Shown here in pieces: positions 7,112 to 50,277 of a stretch of DNA of 64,000 nt; position 1 is the stretch's first letter, and every line of letters begins with the position of its first letter. Origin of the DNA: Balneolaceae bacterium (GTDB lineage: Bacteria; Bacteroidota; Rhodothermia; Balneolales; Balneolaceae); contig CP051242.1 of the NCBI GenBank assembly GCA_017795005.1, forward strand, positions 248,001 to 312,000. Direction: 5' to 3'. Position numbers and translations under genes: made by a program. The notes under the pieces were generated by a model. It ran no database searches and was not told the origin of the DNA. It saw only the letters and a list, made by a program, of their open reading frames with translations.

Positions 7112-8275
7112 ATGCCTATTTACCACCGACTTGGAAAAATCCCGCCCAAAAGGCATACACAATTCCGTAAACCTGATGGCGGTTTATACTATGAGCAGTT
7201 ATTTGGAACAATCGGTTTTGATGGCATGTCTATGCTCTCTTATCACTTGTACCGACCTACCATGATCAGAGAAGTAGGAAATCCTGTTGATGTAAGTCCA
7301 AAAGTTGCTGTTAAAAATAACATGAAGTCCATGATGCTTAAAGGACTCGACATCCAGCCAAAAGAGGATTATCTGGAAGCTCGTGAGGCTATTTTGACTA
7401 ACAGTGATGTAACGTTGCATCTGGCTGCTCCTAAAAAATCATTAAAAGACTATTTCTATAAAAATACTGATGCTGATGAACTGATTTTTATCCATAAAGG
7501 AAGCGGAACGCTTCGAACATTCATTGGTAATATTGATTTTGAACCCGGCGATTATCTGTTAATTCCTAGAGGGATAATCTATCAGATTCAGTTTGATGAT
7601 GAACATAACAGACATTTTATAACAGAGTCCTATGTGCCTATTTACTCTCCTAAAAGATATCGTAACTGGTTTGGGCAATACCTGGAACACTCTCCATATT
7701 GTGAACGAGATTTAAAACTTCCGACTGAATTGGAGACTCATGATGAAAAAGGAGAGTTCATCATGAAAGTTAAAAAACAGGGGATGATGCATGAGCTTAC
7801 TTATGATTCTCATCCTTTTGATGTAATTGGATGGGATGGCTATAGTTTCCCTTATGGTTTTTCCATTAAAAACTTTGAGCCTATCACCGGACGGGTTCAC
7901 CAACCACCACCGGTTCATCAGACTTTTGAAACTTCTGCATTCGTAGTTTGTTCCTTTGTTCCAAGATTATACGATTATCACCCTGAAGCCATTCCTTCCC
8001 CATATCACCATTCTAATATCGATTCGGATGAAGTTATTTATTATGTGGATGGAGATTTCATGAGCAGAAATCATGTAGAACAGGGATATATTTCACTGCA
8101 TCCTGCAGGAATACCACACGGTCCACACCCCGGAGCTTATGAAGGAAGTATTGGTAAAAAAGAAACGAAAGAATGGGCGGTAATGGTCGATACCTTTAAA
8201 CCGCTTATGGTAACAGAAAACGCATTAAAGATTGATGACGGGACTTATTATCAGTCCTGGCTGGAGGATAAATGA
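7112..8275 (+). CDS. hmgA: homogentisate 1,2-dioxygenase
   Basis: 387 residues. The protein shows the cupin-type HGD layout: N-terminal LYYEQLFGTIGFDGMS, a central beta-barrel (ADELIFIHKGSGTLRTFIG, then PGDYLLIPRGIIYQ), and a C-terminal iron site around SPYHHSNIDSDEV and HPAGIPHGPHPG, which supplies the His/Glu/His ligands. It cleaves homogentisate to maleylacetoacetate in the cytoplasm. It is somewhat shorter than the human and Pseudomonas enzymes, in line with the Bacteroidota form. First gene of an operon with fahA (4-bp overlap), a flavin reductase and an acetoacetate-CoA ligase. A palindrome 64 nt upstream probably controls it. Confidence 0.93.
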   Translation: MPIYHRLGKIPPKRHTQFRKPDGGLYYEQLFGTIGFDGMSMLSYHLYRPTMIREVGNPVDVSPKVAVKNNMKSMMLKGLDIQPKEDYLEAREAILTNSDVTLHLAAPKKSLKDYFYKNTDADELIFIHKGSGTLRTFIGNIDFEPGDYLLIPRGIIYQIQFDDEHNRHFITESYVPIYSPKRYRNWFGQYLEHSPYCERDLKLPTELETHDEKGEFIMKVKKQGMMHELTYDSHPFDVIGWDGYSFPYGFSIKNFEPITGRVHQPPPVHQTFETSAFVVCSFVPRLYDYHPEAIPSPYHHSNIDSDEVIYYVDGDFMSRNHVEQGYISLHPAGIPHGPHPGAYEGSIGKKETKEWAVMVDTFKPLMVTENALKIDDGTYYQSWLEDK

Positions 8276-12427: not shown

Positions 12428-13915
12428 ATGAATGATCAAATTCTTAATGAAGTAGAAATACTTCTAAAGTCGCATTATCATCTTATTAATATTGAAACGG
12501 TAGATGATGACAGGGCGGAAGCAATTGTGCGGGAGGTCTCAAAGTCTCTTAATGTTCCTTTTTTTATTTGGTCACTACATCGCGGTTTATACAGTCCAAA
12601 ATATAAAGATGTATATCCTGATACAGAAAACCTCGATAATTTATTCACCCACATAAGTGGAGCTATTTCTGAGGGCTTATATTTGCTAAAAGGATTTAAG
12701 CCGTTTTTAAACGATCAAAAAGTAAATTCCCACTTAATTAGTTTGGTCGACCGGCTTAAAAATGATAGTAGTGCATTATTCTTTACAGGAAAAGGTGCTC
12801 AAATTGAAGACCCTTTAAGATCGCATCTTGCCACAGTAAAATTACCTTTACCTTCCGAGGAAGACTTCAGAATATTGTTAAAGCAGATCTATTCTGATTT
12901 AAAGCGAAAAGAACATATCGAGTTAAATATCACTAAGTCAGACTTGGACAAACTTTTAATGAATTTAAAAGGACTGACTTTATTTGAAGCAAAAAAGGTA
13001 TTGACCATGATTATTGTTGAGGATGGTGATTTAACCAAAAGTGATATTCAGCTTGTCATCGACTCGAAAAAGAAACTCATTGAGAAAGAAGGACTCCTTG
13101 AATATTATGCAATCGATGAAAAATTTGAAGATATCGCAGGGCTCAATGGGCTAAAAAACTGGCTCCAAAAAAGACGTGTTTTTATTGAAGAACCTGAAAA
13201 AGCCAAACAAGCAGGTCTTAGTTTTCCTAAAGGCATACTCCTTCTCGGAGTTCCCGGAACTGGAAAAAGTTTGTGTGCTAAGGCTGTTTCTAAAGAATGG
13301 GGTCTTCCATTGTTAAAAATGGATCCCGCTAAATTATATAGTAAATACATTGGAGATACCGAGGCAAAGTTCAGTAAAGCAATGCGGCTATCCGAAAGAA
13401 TGGCTCCTCTTATTTTATGGATTGATGAAATTGAAAAGGCCTTCGCAAGTGGTGGAGATGCTGATGGAGGGGTTTCTCAGCGTGTTATTGGTAGTTTTCT
13501 TACCTGGATGCAGGAACGAAAAGGAGATGTTTTCGTGATTGCAACTGCAAATAATGTTGAAAAATTACCTCCTGAATTTCTTAGAAAGGGTCGCTTTGAT
13601 GAACTCTTTTTTGTGGACCTTCCTGATCATTCAACAAGAAAGGAAATTTTAAAAATACATTTATCCAGACGTAATATTTCTTTTGAAGAAATTGACCTCG
13701 ATTCCATTGCACAGCAATCGGAAGGTTTTAGCGGCGCTGAGCTGGAGCAACTGGTTATCGGAGCTTTATACTCATCCTTATCAAACAATTCAGATATTTC
13801 ACAAAAAGACCTTGAGAATGAATTAGCCGCTACCAGTCCATTATCTCATACTTTTGGTGAAAGAATTCAGGCCCTTAGATCATGGGCTGAAACACGAACA
13901 GTAAGTGCTAATTAG
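12428..13915 (+). CDS. Ycf46-type AAA+ ATPase
   Basis: 495 residues. An N-terminal domain (about 1-215) starts with the SHYHLINIETVDDDRAEAIV stretch typical of Ycf46 proteins. It is followed by one AAA+ module: Walker A GVPGTGKS (about 275), Walker B LILWIDEIEKAF, an Arg-finger region PPEFLRKGRFDELFFVDLP, and a C-terminal AAA lid. The cyanobacterial homologue affects CO2 use; no substrate is known in this lineage. It sits between the hmgA operon and hppD on the same strand, 76 bp after the ligase gene. It may be read through from that operon, but the link to tyrosine catabolism is positional only. Confidence 0.85.
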   Translation: MNDQILNEVEILLKSHYHLINIETVDDDRAEAIVREVSKSLNVPFFIWSLHRGLYSPKYKDVYPDTENLDNLFTHISGAISEGLYLLKGFKPFLNDQKVNSHLISLVDRLKNDSSALFFTGKGAQIEDPLRSHLATVKLPLPSEEDFRILLKQIYSDLKRKEHIELNITKSDLDKLLMNLKGLTLFEAKKVLTMIIVEDGDLTKSDIQLVIDSKKKLIEKEGLLEYYAIDEKFEDIAGLNGLKNWLQKRRVFIEEPEKAKQAGLSFPKGILLLGVPGTGKSLCAKAVSKEWGLPLLKMDPAKLYSKYIGDTEAKFSKAMRLSERMAPLILWIDEIEKAFASGGDADGGVSQRVIGSFLTWMQERKGDVFVIATANNVEKLPPEFLRKGRFDELFFVDLPDHSTRKEILKIHLSRRNISFEEIDLDSIAQQSEGFSGAELEQLVIGALYSSLSNNSDISQKDLENELAATSPLSHTFGERIQALRSWAETRTVSAN

Positions 13916-22740: not shown

Positions 22741-22832
22741 GACATAAAAAAAGCCTGCTTTTTTATAGCTGGCTGCTTTGTTTTTTCAGTAACTGGCACC
22801 AAAATACGGTGAAGAAGTACCGCTAACCAAAT
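22741..22832 (-). ncRNA. 92-nt structured element, copy 1 (leader attenuator or sRNA candidate)
   Basis: On the minus strand this reads ATTTGGTT, a short GGT/ACC stem, CCGTAT, CAGTTACTG, and then an intrinsic terminator (AGCC-A-GCT / AGC-A-GGCT plus seven T). An equal-length copy lies at 45549-45640 on the other strand; the 3' half is almost identical while the 5' half varies. It ends 89 nt before the start of the co-directional phosphoesterase/barrel gene. It could be a transcription attenuator for that gene or an independent small RNA. No known RNA family was recognised. Confidence 0.6.
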
Positions 22833-22870
22833 CTAATTTTAAATATATAAGTAATAATAAATTTTGTATA

Positions 22871-22886
22871 ATTATCAATTGATAAT
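22871..22886. promoter_or_regulatory. perfect 16-bp palindrome in divergent promoter region
   Basis: ATTATCAATTGATAAT is a perfect dyad between the HTH gene at 22929 and the minus-strand element at 22832. A dimeric regulator bound here could control both directions; the adjacent HTH protein is the obvious candidate. AT-rich flanks make chance dyads more likely. Confidence 0.5.
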
Positions 22887-22928
22887 ACTTATTTAAAGTT
22901 ATTTAAAAACAATTTAAATCAAATTGAA

Positions 22929-23342
22929 ATGCCTAAAAAAATTGGTGGGCTCACCCTTTATTCCGTTGATGATCTGCATGAGATGCTCGGTATTTCCAAA
23001 CTTACACTTCGGGCCTATCTGAGAGAGGGTAGAATACGTGCCCGTAAATTAGGGGTGAGCTGGTATGTAACCGAAGACGCCATTAGAGAATATTTTGATG
23101 CCCCACAACCTGAGGTATCGCCTAAAAGAAACGAGTCTGAATTCAGATACATTGTTCAGGGGATTAATGATCTTGTTAGTGAAACCGAAGAGTGTGAAAC
23201 AAAAGAAGAGGTTTTAGAGATTTTAAATGAGCAAGCCATTATCAGCTTGTTTCAGGTACAGGTTGTTGACCGAAGTACGAATGAGATAACTGAAATTATT
23301 AAAGCCAGAGATTTTATCGATCGATATGCTAACTCTAAATGA
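22929..23342 (+). CDS. excisionase/MerR-like helix-turn-helix protein
   Basis: 137 residues. Residues 10-55 form an HTH_17/MerR-like winged helix (SVDDLHEMLGISKLTLRAYL, then EGRIRARKLGVSWYVTEDAI). The C-terminal 70 residues are acidic and helical with VQGINDLVSETEECETKEEV. No integrase or phage gene is nearby, so a chromosomal regulator is more likely than an excisionase. The gene overlaps the next one by 17 bp, suggesting a pair translated together. A perfect palindrome 43-58 nt upstream of the start is a possible autoregulatory site. Confidence 0.8.
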   Translation: MPKKIGGLTLYSVDDLHEMLGISKLTLRAYLREGRIRARKLGVSWYVTEDAIREYFDAPQPEVSPKRNESEFRYIVQGINDLVSETEECETKEEVLEILNEQAIISLFQVQVVDRSTNEITEIIKARDFIDRYANSK

Positions 23343-23610
23343 TACCAGCTTGGAAACCTTCCGTTTTGGTGACTCCGAAGAAGATCAATATTACATATTA
23401 ATTAATATTTCCAAAAACCCTGAGGGTGTTAATTTGGGCAAATTAGCAATGGCTGATCCAAGAAGGTTTGATGCTGTACTTAATGAAATGGGATGTTTGT
23501 TGATGCTAAGTGGTACAGAAATCCGGGAATTATCAAACCGTGGAGATGTGCAGAAAGAGCAACTACATGAATCTCTATTTAAACTGGCAAGACAACAAGG
23601 TTTACTCTGA
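23326..23610 (+). CDS. small protein paired with the HTH regulator (unknown)
   Basis: 94 residues, no signal or membrane segment, predicted mixed alpha/beta (TFRFGDSEEDQYYILINISK, then GKLAMADPRRFDAVLNEMGC). It starts 17 bp inside the HTH gene, an overlap typical of translational coupling. Its TGA directly abuts the stop of the convergent NUDIX gene. The family is not recognised. Its role could be a partner or modulator of the HTH protein. Confidence 0.7.
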   Translation: MLTLNDTSLETFRFGDSEEDQYYILINISKNPEGVNLGKLAMADPRRFDAVLNEMGCLLMLSGTEIRELSNRGDVQKEQLHESLFKLARQQGLL

Positions 23611-45505: not shown

Positions 45506-45530
45506 TTAATGATATATAGATTATCATTAA
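45506..45530. promoter_or_regulatory. 9-bp inverted repeat upstream of the 92-nt element copy 2
   Basis: TTAATGATA (45506-45514), 7-nt spacer, TATCATTAA (45522-45530). It ends 18 nt before the element at 45549. Copy 1 has a different dyad (22871-22886) that shares the TATCA/TGATA half-site but in the opposite order. The rest of 45400-45548 holds only AT-rich sequence with a minor hairpin (CTTAAT-TTTT-ATTAAG). Confidence 0.45.
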
Positions 45531-45548
45531 TTATATAATTCAATTTAA

Positions 45549-45640
45549 ATTTGGTTGAGGCCACATCTCCGCCGTATATTGGTTTCAGTTACTGAAAAAT
45601 CAGAAGCAGCCAGCTATAAAAAGCAGGCTTTTTTTATGTC
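45549..45640 (+). ncRNA. 92-nt structured element, copy 2 (leader attenuator or sRNA candidate)
   Basis: Same length and order as the element at 22741-22832: ATTTGGTT, a GGC/GCC stem, CCGTAT, TTTCAG-TTA-CTGAAA hairpin (45583-45597), then the terminator AGCC-A-GCT/AGC-A-GGCT with seven T, ending ATGTC. In the 38 bases from after ATTTGGTT through CAGTTACTG, 27 match copy 1; the 3' 46 bases differ only by a few changes and single-base indels. It ends 60 nt before the co-directional gene at 45701. Confidence 0.6.
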
Positions 45641-45700: not shown

Positions 45701-46438
45701 ATGAACTCACCCAGCGGACAGCCTTCCATTGATTTATTTGGCATTACCATCATGGAGCCGATGGTTACACTCACAGACCTGTGGATTACTGCCGTTTGTT
45801 TATATGCTTTCGTAAAACTACTTCAGCTTAATAAACCAGGGAAAGTACACCAGTATATGCGCTGGTATTTTTTGATTATGGGTATAGCGACTTTTTTAGG
45901 AGGGATACTTGGGCATGCTTTTCAATATGCGATAGGGATTGAGTGGAAGTTGCCGGGCTGGTTAATAAGTATGCTTGCTGTAATGGCACTGGAGCGCGCA
46001 TCTATAATGCATGCTCAACCAGTTATTAAAAAATCTTTTGGTCGTTTTTTAGAGGTTGCTAATGTTGTTGAGTTAATCACCTTTGCTGTAATTACCTTTA
46101 TAACTCTAAACTTCTTTTATATTCAGATTCACTCGGCCTATGGGTTGGGCTTGATTGTACTTCCACTTCATTTTCTTGTCTTCCGGAAAACCAGAAACCG
46201 TGGAAGCCGGGTTTTTATTCTTAGTGTTTCATTTTCCTCGTTAGCAGCCCTTTTTTACACCAGCAAAATCGGTCTGGGAATTTGGTTTAACCACCTCGAC
46301 CTCGCTCATACCATCATGGCAATAAGTATGTATTTTTTATACCGTGGTACTTTAGTTCTGGAGGTTACGAAGCCCAAGGATATTCTTGAAGAAAGAAGTA
46401 CATTTACAAATACCATTAATGCTTTAATTAGACGATAA
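45701..46438 (+). CDS. seven-span membrane protein (DUF6962-like)
   Basis: 245 residues with about seven hydrophobic segments (TDLWITAVCLYAFVKLLQL, FLIMGIATFLGGILGHAFQY, GWLISMLAVMALERASIM, LITFAVITFITLNFFYIQI, LGLIVLPLHFLVF, VSFSSLAALFYTSKIGLGIW, HTIMAISMYFLYRGTLVL). A conserved GHAFQY and WFNHLDLAHT resemble uncharacterised Bacteroidota membrane proteins with His residues in spans. Function unknown. The 92-nt structured element precedes it. Two small paralogous genes follow closely. Confidence 0.75.
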   Translation: MNSPSGQPSIDLFGITIMEPMVTLTDLWITAVCLYAFVKLLQLNKPGKVHQYMRWYFLIMGIATFLGGILGHAFQYAIGIEWKLPGWLISMLAVMALERASIMHAQPVIKKSFGRFLEVANVVELITFAVITFITLNFFYIQIHSAYGLGLIVLPLHFLVFRKTRNRGSRVFILSVSFSSLAALFYTSKIGLGIWFNHLDLAHTIMAISMYFLYRGTLVLEVTKPKDILEERSTFTNTINALIRR

Positions 46439-47429: not shown

Positions 47430-48252
47430 ATGAAGAGATCACTAACGATCCTTTCTGTAACTTCTTTGGCAGTAGTTCTGTTTTTTACTGCTTTATTTTT
47501 GAAGGCTGATACTGAAAAACCCATCTCCACAAAAGAAACACCAACCATTGCGTTTATAAACGTCACTGTGATTCCTATGACGGAAGATGGTCTGGTTTTG
47601 GAAAATCAGACCGTAACGGTAAATAGTGGTAGAATTGGGCGTATCATTCCTACAAGGGAAAAACATTTAGCCGGTGGCGCTTATGAATATGAGATTGATG
47701 GTACCAACGCAGGCTCTATGGGAAACTATTATCGGAGCTGGCGACTATGATACAATAAGAAATTATGATGAGCTTAAATACATTCCTCAGGCCTTTCGAA
47801 ATGGGTACAATAATTGGGTTACTAATAATATTGACAACAACGCCAATCTGAATATTGGTGATGCGTTGGATCACGTTGAACTTCGTCGTGAACTCCTTCA
47901 AAAAATTGATGAAGCCGGCGCTTTAATTTTGATGGGCACCGATGCTCCACAATTATTTAGTGTTCCCGGGTTTTCAATTCACCGTGAACTTCCAAAAATG
48001 GTTGAAGCAGGAATGAGTCCTTATGAGATAATTGAATCCGGTACCAGAAACGTAGGAATCTATTTTAAAGACTCGGCTGATTTTGGAACCATTGAAACGG
48101 GTAAACGGACCGATTTAATTTTAGTTGACCGTAATCCTTTGGAAGATGTGAGCAATATTCAAAACAATTCAGGGGTAATGGTTCGCGGAAAGTGGCTTTC
48201 GAAAGAAGTAATCGATAAGAGGCTTTCAGAAATTGAAGTCTCTTATAATTAA
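47430..48252 (+). pseudogene. amidohydrolase pseudogene with large internal deletion
   Basis: The first frame (from ATG 47430) encodes a signal-anchor and the N-terminal beta-sandwich of an amidohydrolase (TIAFINVTVIPMTEDGLVLE, then NSGRIGRI) and stops at 47748. A second frame from about 47700 to 48252 encodes the C-terminal part (LILMGTDAPQLFSVPGFSIH, MVEAGMSPYEIIESGTRNVG, GTIETGKRTDLILVDRNPLE). The middle, including the HxH metal motif, is missing and the frame shifts at the junction near 47705. It therefore cannot be an active enzyme. An intact but different amidohydrolase lies 0.8 kb downstream. Confidence 0.85.
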
Positions 48253-49050: not shown

Positions 49051-50277
49051 ATGAAGCGAATAAACTCTTTGATCTTTGGGGTACTCTTTGTTGTGATATG
49101 CTCAGCAACTTCTTTAGGACAGTCGACAACTACTTTTTTTACCGGGGCTCATATCATACCAATATCAGGAGATCCAATCGAAAAAGGGGTGCTCGTAATT
49201 AAAGATGGAAAAATCGTCGATATTGCCGATCACCGTTATAAAATTCCTTCAGATGCTCAGGTAGTAAATGTTTCCGGAAAAGTAATAATGCCAGGGCTCG
49301 TTGATACTCATTCTCATATTGGTGAGGGTGATGGAGGCGATCGTTCTTCATCACTTCATCCCGATGTTCGTATTCTTGATGCGATTGACCCAAGAAGTTA
49401 TACGTTTAAAAGGGCCTTAGCAGGCGGAATTACTTCAGCTAATATCATGCCCGGATCCGGTCATCTAATGAGTGGGCAAACCGTATATGTTAAGCTTCGC
49501 AAAGCAAATACCATTGAAGAAATGTTGCTGGTTATTGACGAGGAAAACAATATTTATGGTGACTTAAAAATGGCTAATGGAACAAACCCAATTGGAAATG
49601 GAGCACCTCCAAGACCAGGAACCAGAGCCAAGTCTGCCGCTATGGCTCGTGAATTATTCATTAAGGCTCAGAATTATCAACAGAAAATTGAAGCTGCAGA
49701 TGGGGATGAAAGTAAAATGCCGCCACGTTATCTTCAGATGGAAACGCTGGTTGAAGTATTAGAGGGGAAAAGAACGGTTCATAATCACTCTCGCCGACAC
49801 GATGATATTTTAACCGCCATTCGTCTTCAAAAAGAGTTCGGTTTTCCAATGGTAATTGACGGAGCCGCAGAAGATTATTTAGTTCTGGATGAAATTAAAG
49901 AATCCAGTCATGCTGTCTTTGCTCATCCGCCTATGTTGCGGGCTACCGGTCAGGCAAAAAATGCACCGATGAATCTTACTTCAGCGCTATTTGAAGCTGA
50001 TATTCCTTTTGCTTTCCAAAGTGGCTTTGAAGAATATGTTCCTAAAACAAGGGTGGTGTTATATGAAGCCGCTATTGCTGCTGCCCACGGACTTGATCCG
50101 GAAATAGCGATACAAAAACTGACTATTGATGCCGCCAAACTTCTTGGCATTGCAGATCGTGTGGGTTCATTAGAACGAGGAAAAGATGCCGACTTAGCGT
50201 TGTATGATGGTGACCTTTTTGAATATCTCACTCATGTAACCCATGTAATTATTAACGGAGACCTGGTAACGGAATAA
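49051..50277 (+). CDS. secreted amidohydrolase family protein
   Basis: 408 residues. Signal peptide 1-23 (LIFGVLFVVICSATSLGQ). The metal motif DTHSHIGEGDGG (about 88) provides HxH. Later motifs are HNHSRRHDDILTAIRLQKEF (metal His region), AVFAHPPM, and the composite-domain end RVGSLERGKDADLALYDGDL. It is shorter than relatives of around 430-450 residues, but all the expected blocks are seen. The group includes imidazolonepropionase- and dipeptidase-like enzymes, and the substrate is unknown. It lies 2 bp before the GMC oxidoreductase gene, so co-transcription with the next two genes is likely. Confidence 0.88.
   Translation: MKRINSLIFGVLFVVICSATSLGQSTTTFFTGAHIIPISGDPIEKGVLVIKDGKIVDIADHRYKIPSDAQVVNVSGKVIMPGLVDTHSHIGEGDGGDRSSSLHPDVRILDAIDPRSYTFKRALAGGITSANIMPGSGHLMSGQTVYVKLRKANTIEEMLLVIDEENNIYGDLKMANGTNPIGNGAPPRPGTRAKSAAMARELFIKAQNYQQKIEAADGDESKMPPRYLQMETLVEVLEGKRTVHNHSRRHDDILTAIRLQKEFGFPMVIDGAAEDYLVLDEIKESSHAVFAHPPMLRATGQAKNAPMNLTSALFEADIPFAFQSGFEEYVPKTRVVLYEAAIAAAHGLDPEIAIQKLTIDAAKLLGIADRVGSLERGKDADLALYDGDLFEYLTHVTHVIINGDLVTE

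Follow-up and report, generated by a model that had tools for sequence, protein, structure and literature searches.

In several bacterial circuits, the gene of a small RNA (sRNA) is divergent from the gene of its own transcription regulator, as in OxyR-OxyS and SgrR-SgrS, and tandem or multicopy sibling sRNAs are found in other phyla, such as Qrr, LhrC and the Cia-dependent sRNAs. The gcvB gene corresponds to the same arrangement, being divergent from and activated by gcvA (PMC1557403). In Bacteroides, FopS and GibS are paralogous sRNAs acting with the RRM protein RbpB, and their family carries a common 41-nt motif bound by this protein (PMC11697453). Also, the regulator BldC binds AT-rich direct repeats in a head-to-tail manner (PMC5859096).

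Here, two related units of 92 nt were analyzed in a stretch of 64,000 nucleotides (the window) from the 3.75-Mb complete genome of a Balneolaceae bacterium. Based on sequence comparison, we propose with moderate confidence that both copies would be paralogous genes of a non-coding, trans-acting sRNA of ~78 nt, controlled by a divergent winged helix-turn-helix (wHTH) regulator. By analogy, this RNA would work most like the GcvA-GcvB system, to which it is unrelated in sequence. The likeness resides in an sRNA gene placed back-to-back with a regulator gene, a regulator-like site between them and a stand-alone RNA. Nonetheless, the candidate regulator of Balneolaceae is HTH_17/BldC-like, whereas GcvA is of the LysR type, and unlike GcvB, several dispersed copies of the Balneolaceae RNA keep the same operator and none has an sRNA match in Rfam. 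The features of both loci, in window coordinates, are the following:

22746-22823, minus strand: predicted small RNA of copy 1, from the homologue alignment (sequence profile R1, 93.7 bits); start placed at about 22821-22824 and end in the T-run, both ends predicted
22788-22794, minus strand: AGTTACT of copy 1, accompanying the conserved core CCGTATTTTGG (homologue alignment)
22746-22774, minus strand: intrinsic terminator of copy 1, an AGCC...GGCT stem and then TTTTTTT (sequence and fold)
22828-22835, minus strand: putative -7 promoter box of copy 1, TAGATTTG, of the TAnnTTTG type (invariant ATTTGG; genome pattern search)
22846-22886, minus strand: operator-like AT-rich repeats of copy 1, with the conserved half-site ATTACTTATA at 22846-22855 and weaker phased half-sites further upstream (alignment columns; 10-bp autocorrelation)
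22929-23342, plus strand: candidate regulator gene, encoding a 137-aa protein with a winged HTH (Pfam HTH_17, E 1.4e-10) and a family-specific C-terminal alpha/beta domain
23326-23610, plus strand: gene of a 94-aa protein conserved just behind the HTH gene, a possible partner (no Pfam match; in 20 loci)
45558-45635, plus strand: predicted small RNA of copy 2 (R1, 84.8 bits in the window scan and 88.9 in the genome scan)
45573-45582, plus strand: core of copy 2, CGTATATTGG, with AGTTACT at 45587-45593 (alignment)
45608-45635, plus strand: intrinsic terminator of copy 2 (sequence and fold)
45546-45553, plus strand: putative -7 promoter box of copy 2, TAAATTTG (sequence; genome pattern search)
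45516-45535, plus strand: operator-like repeat of copy 2, with the half-site ATTAATTATA at 45526-45535 (copy alignment; genome pattern search)

Both units are present at the positions and on the strands given by an earlier note on this DNA, and they are related by blastn. With copy 1 as the query against the whole genome, copy 2 is retrieved with an E value of 5e-26 and the next match appears only at 0.04, so that the genome holds two such units and no more, in agreement with the R1 profile search. A third R1 match (1469124-1469196, E 0.007) lacks the operator and the terminator and was taken as chance, and, separately, an exact DNA pattern searched against genome contigs gave no match, being too strict. 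The equal length of 92 nt noticed earlier is true and at the same time partly a coincidence, given that the copies differ by two 1-nt indels that compensate each other. Moreover, the alignment of the two copies covers the 92 nt plus ~45 AT-rich bases upstream, and the true unit is thus longer than originally described.

An alignment of 22 sequences, comprising homologues from 14 related genomes and the two window copies, gives the consensus TATTAnTTAnTATTAGTTATA-n8-AAATTAGATTTGGTCnAGGC-n8-CCGCCGTATATTGGTnnCAGTTAnTCAAAAAACA, followed by a GC stem of free sequence, TTTTTTT and ATGYC. In this alignment ATTTGG is invariant, TATATT, AGTTA and the T-run are near-invariant, and the conserved RNA core corresponds to CGUAUAUUGG...AGUUAYUCAAAAAACA. 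The terminator stem varies freely among the homologues while the T-run and ATGYC are kept, in accordance with the previous observation that both copies end at an intrinsic terminator, and the homology between loci ends at this point. At the other end, TAGATTTG fits TAnnTTTG, the -7 box of Bacteroidota promoters; the sequence ATTTGGTT, previously read as the RNA start, would therefore be the promoter, with the RNA beginning a few nucleotides later. In terminator-type members, then, the conserved unit contains its own TAnnTTTG box and T-run, and would consist of a promoter, an RNA of ~78 nt and an intrinsic terminator. No covariance model of Rfam 15 matches the window at its gathering score (best sub-threshold E 0.87). 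On the loci of relatives, Rfam gives no match to the RNA, detecting only a tRNA and a SAM-I-IV riboswitch elsewhere; the latter, at 7820-7921 (+) of locus L090, is unrelated to the small RNA.

The -7 box is preceded by AT-rich direct repeats of the ATTAnTTA type with a period of 10 bp. For 97 copies aligned on the -7 box, the autocorrelation of ATTA at lag 10 is 0.417, compared with 0.334 after shuffling. The exact form ATTAnTTATA is found in 35 of 48 HTH-linked and 33 of 70 dispersed copies versus 1.2% of shuffled regions, although the R1 model includes the promoter and operator detection is partly biased toward copies having one. A combined operator and -7 pattern finds two sites in the whole genome, which are the two copies (control, 0), and a strict two-repeat operator pattern misses both of them in the same genome, the distal repeat being degenerate. 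The proximal repeat begins 20 bp upstream of the TAnnTTTG box, the place expected for a -33 element; this location of the repeats suggests that the bound regulator would act by activation. A palindrome, TTATCAATTGATAA, is also observed between copy 1 and the HTH gene (22873-22890, +), and could belong to the HTH promoter.

As for the protein that would recognize these repeats, the earlier note paired the units with the co-directional genes and made no mention of the divergent HTH gene, which lies on the opposite side and is the partner that is conserved. The RNA is divergent from this gene in 64 of the 88 genomes having the protein, one of these 64 RNA matches being added from a separate search, and no other position of the RNA is retained so broadly. 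Likewise, of 67 named loci obtained by way of the protein, 54 have a divergent HTH neighbour; the loci come largely from the same genomes and include two that are only distant Ignavibacteria matches. The names retrieved in this way, which identify the family as Balneolaceae, include Gracilimonas, Balneola, Fodinibius/Aliifodinibius and Rhodohalobacter, and in the named loci the RNA lies mostly ~65 nt from the HTH start codon. In the genus g5, 7-9 kb separate the RNA from the HTH gene, and in some genomes the HTH gene is retained without any RNA match. The C-terminal domain of the HTH protein occurs once per genome in 88 of 92 Balneolaceae and in none of ~349 other genomes, although the phyletic co-occurrence of protein and RNA is weak evidence, both being simply family-wide. 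The wHTH fold, MerR-like/Xis-like, resembles Xis, BldC and RdfS at the fold level only (Foldseek E ~0.3 for a model with pLDDT 76). As candidate binding sites, AT-rich direct repeats spaced by roughly one turn of the helix also recall BldC, with a spacing of 10 bp in Balneolaceae where BldC protomers cover 9 bp. In contrast to BldC (68 aa), whose family has a MerR-like wHTH and neither a coiled coil nor an effector domain, the Balneolaceae protein has the extra C-terminal domain.

Regarding its distribution, the R1 profile matches 85 of 92 Balneolaceae genomes, with 1-7 copies in each, which together with the absence of any Rfam match bears out the idea of an undescribed element having homologues in related genomes. 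When R1 was run against 394 genomes drawn from the phylum, 46 matched, 44 of them Balneolaceae and two elsewhere with weak scores; outside the family, then, the profile weakly matches 2 of ~349 genomes. These two (G461 and G452) were rejected as members, their matches being weak and without the operator. In G461, from another family of the class, three weak matches are seen (L143, L144) with a TATGTTG(G)TAA...GTT-like core, a terminator ending in TTTTTATGTC and no operator; they may reflect very remote kinship or a widespread kind of terminator. The sequences show a family that is old, multicopy and restricted to Balneolaceae, and that was previously undescribed.

This pattern recalls FopS and GibS, which likewise make up a multicopy family of sRNAs limited to a single bacterial family, with sigma-ABfr-type promoters and an RRM protein encoded in the genome. 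Unlike them, the Balneolaceae RNA is linked to a dedicated HTH gene, the comparison with FopS being one of descriptions, and R1 has no convincing member outside Balneolaceae in the phylum sample. As in Qrr, LhrC and the Cia-dependent sRNAs, to which no sequence relation is known as judged through Rfam only, there are several paralogues per genome and sometimes two or three in tandem in one intergenic region. In several genera such tandem copies occupy the space that separates the HTH gene from the gene that follows, at intervals of ~370-510 bp (L088 at 4162, 4538 and 4906; L262 at 1043, 1424 and 1787; L074 at 3321 and 3771), two to three copies within one intergenic region being seen in L088, L089, L091 and L262. 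In a further locus (L081, G021:C12), two RNA copies at 12791 and 14377 are each located ~60 nt behind members of one small-protein family, which looks like a joint duplication of gene and RNA.

As for secondary structure, although both copies allow the 5' stem proposed earlier (GGT/ACC in one copy and GGC/GCC in the other) to be drawn, this stem lacks conservation: its registers slip by one between homologues, RNAalifold returns 0 pairs for the 22 sequences, and the stem was rejected. Compared with shuffled sequence, the folds of the two copies show no gain (z of -0.6 and -1.0), and terminator-type members have 0 consensus pairs for a structured aptamer upstream of the terminator. On the other hand, members without the terminator (the Rhodohalobacter type and extra copies elsewhere) carry a hairpin in which the conserved AGTTACT segment provides the 5' arm and AAACAAAAGCCC(A/T)(T/C)C the loop. 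Its arms include GTTACTTG/CAAGTAAT, GTTGCTTG/CAAGCAAT, TTGATCA/TGATCAA, GTTATTC/GAATAAC and GTTACATT/GATGTAAC, among others, with 42 distinct helices of at least 6 bp among 76 terminator-less sequences. The mean helix length in these 76 is 6.32, compared with 4.58 +/- 0.13 when the arms are exchanged between sequences, a value reached by none of 1000 permutations; this permutation keeps the search procedure and not the relatedness, so kinship may inflate the difference, and the count of distinct helices carries more weight. Applied to the 38 terminator-type members, including those of the window, this test gives a negative result, the observed value being reached by 943 of 1000 permutations, and pairing of AGTTACT was rejected for them. 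Hence, the covariation sought by the earlier note does exist in the wider family, but in a different stem from the one it proposed and in none of the window's lineage, where the terminator stands in the place of the hairpin of sister genera. At the sequence level this appears to be a clear case of an RNA whose 3' half was remodelled, hairpin versus terminator, with promoter and core kept.

The main idea of the earlier note was that the units are attenuators or riboswitch-like leaders of the envelope genes downstream. Copy 1 indeed ends 89 nt and copy 2 60 nt before the next co-directional gene, as was noted, and many HTH-linked copies have such a gene 50-120 nt downstream. In addition, 14 loci contain a member of the metallophosphoesterase/Omp85 gene family, which in most of them comes immediately after the RNA, and some read-through would be possible. 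However, what is true of both window copies is no rule of the family, since the next gene of the dispersed copies is co-directional in 26 cases, opposite in 37 and missing within 1.5 kb in 7, and the genes found behind the RNA in other genera are unrelated. A leader function is very unlikely: the first bases correspond to the -7 box, a terminator precedes the gene, homology stops at this terminator, and the window's lineage shows no conserved structure that could act as its competitor. Copy 2 is followed by the gene of a DUF6962 membrane protein (window 45701-46438, +), which also follows the RNA in the genus g5 and in genome G001 (L092, L093, L094, L064), and the place before this gene is a second old location of the RNA. 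Further downstream, two overlapping ORFs (window 47430-48252, +) encode the two ends of an amidohydrolase whose middle is apparently missing, probably a decayed gene adjoined by a longer relative at 49051-50277. A mobile or duplicating MITE-like cassette carrying promoter and terminator by chance would explain why genomes have 1-7 copies, some of them in tandem or clustered; nonetheless, its boundaries coincide with the promoter and the terminator, the copies are diverged and not recent, phage and plasmid collections contain no match to the RNA, and throughout the family one copy keeps a fixed place next to the HTH gene, all of which makes the cassette highly improbable. A small translated gene is scarcely credible: as a short peptide would require, both window copies leave a TTG frame starting near TATATTG uninterrupted through the core, but stop codons and 1-nt indels disrupt this frame in close relatives, and paralogues within a single genome already differ in this way. 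For this reason the 92-nt units are most likely non-coding RNA genes. The other possibility raised earlier, a duplicated sRNA, is the best fit.

For such an sRNA, the wHTH protein would bind the direct repeats cooperatively, in a BldC-like fashion, and would control, probably activating, the transcription of all RNA copies and perhaps of its own gene. The RNA, in turn, would use its conserved core for base-pairing with targets in trans, which is the default for RNAs of this kind, perhaps with an RRM protein, considered as a possible helper because the genome encodes one. The main rival to base-pairing is that the RNA sequesters a protein, either the HTH regulator, the RRM protein or RNA polymerase. 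Consistent with sequestration, conservation is highest in a short sequence, and the conserved AAACAAAAGCCC loop of the covarying hairpin could be a protein site. Moreover, the complement of the core, taken as a target signature, is not enriched in the genome (19 matches versus 28 for the reversed control), and duplex prediction against the 59 genes of the window gives no outlier and no convincing target. However, the hairpin is absent in the window's lineage, and we consider sequestration unlikely. A broader proposal, which we hold as quite unlikely, is a family-wide circuit where a BldC-like protein with a new C-terminal domain drives a dispersed set of sibling RNAs, the RNA or its hairpin loop feeds back on the protein, and the 3' end is switched within the family between a terminator and a covarying hairpin, with core and promoter unchanged. 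The paralogous, trans-acting sRNA remains our preferred reading of the two copies.

Finally, no sRNA family for Balneolaceae was found in Rfam or in the literature searched. The RNA described here would be an example of a family with a remodelled 3' half, hairpin versus terminator, in which promoter and core are kept. Moreover, a near-universal RNA adjoining a one-copy candidate regulator would offer an entry point to post-transcriptional control in Balneolaceae.
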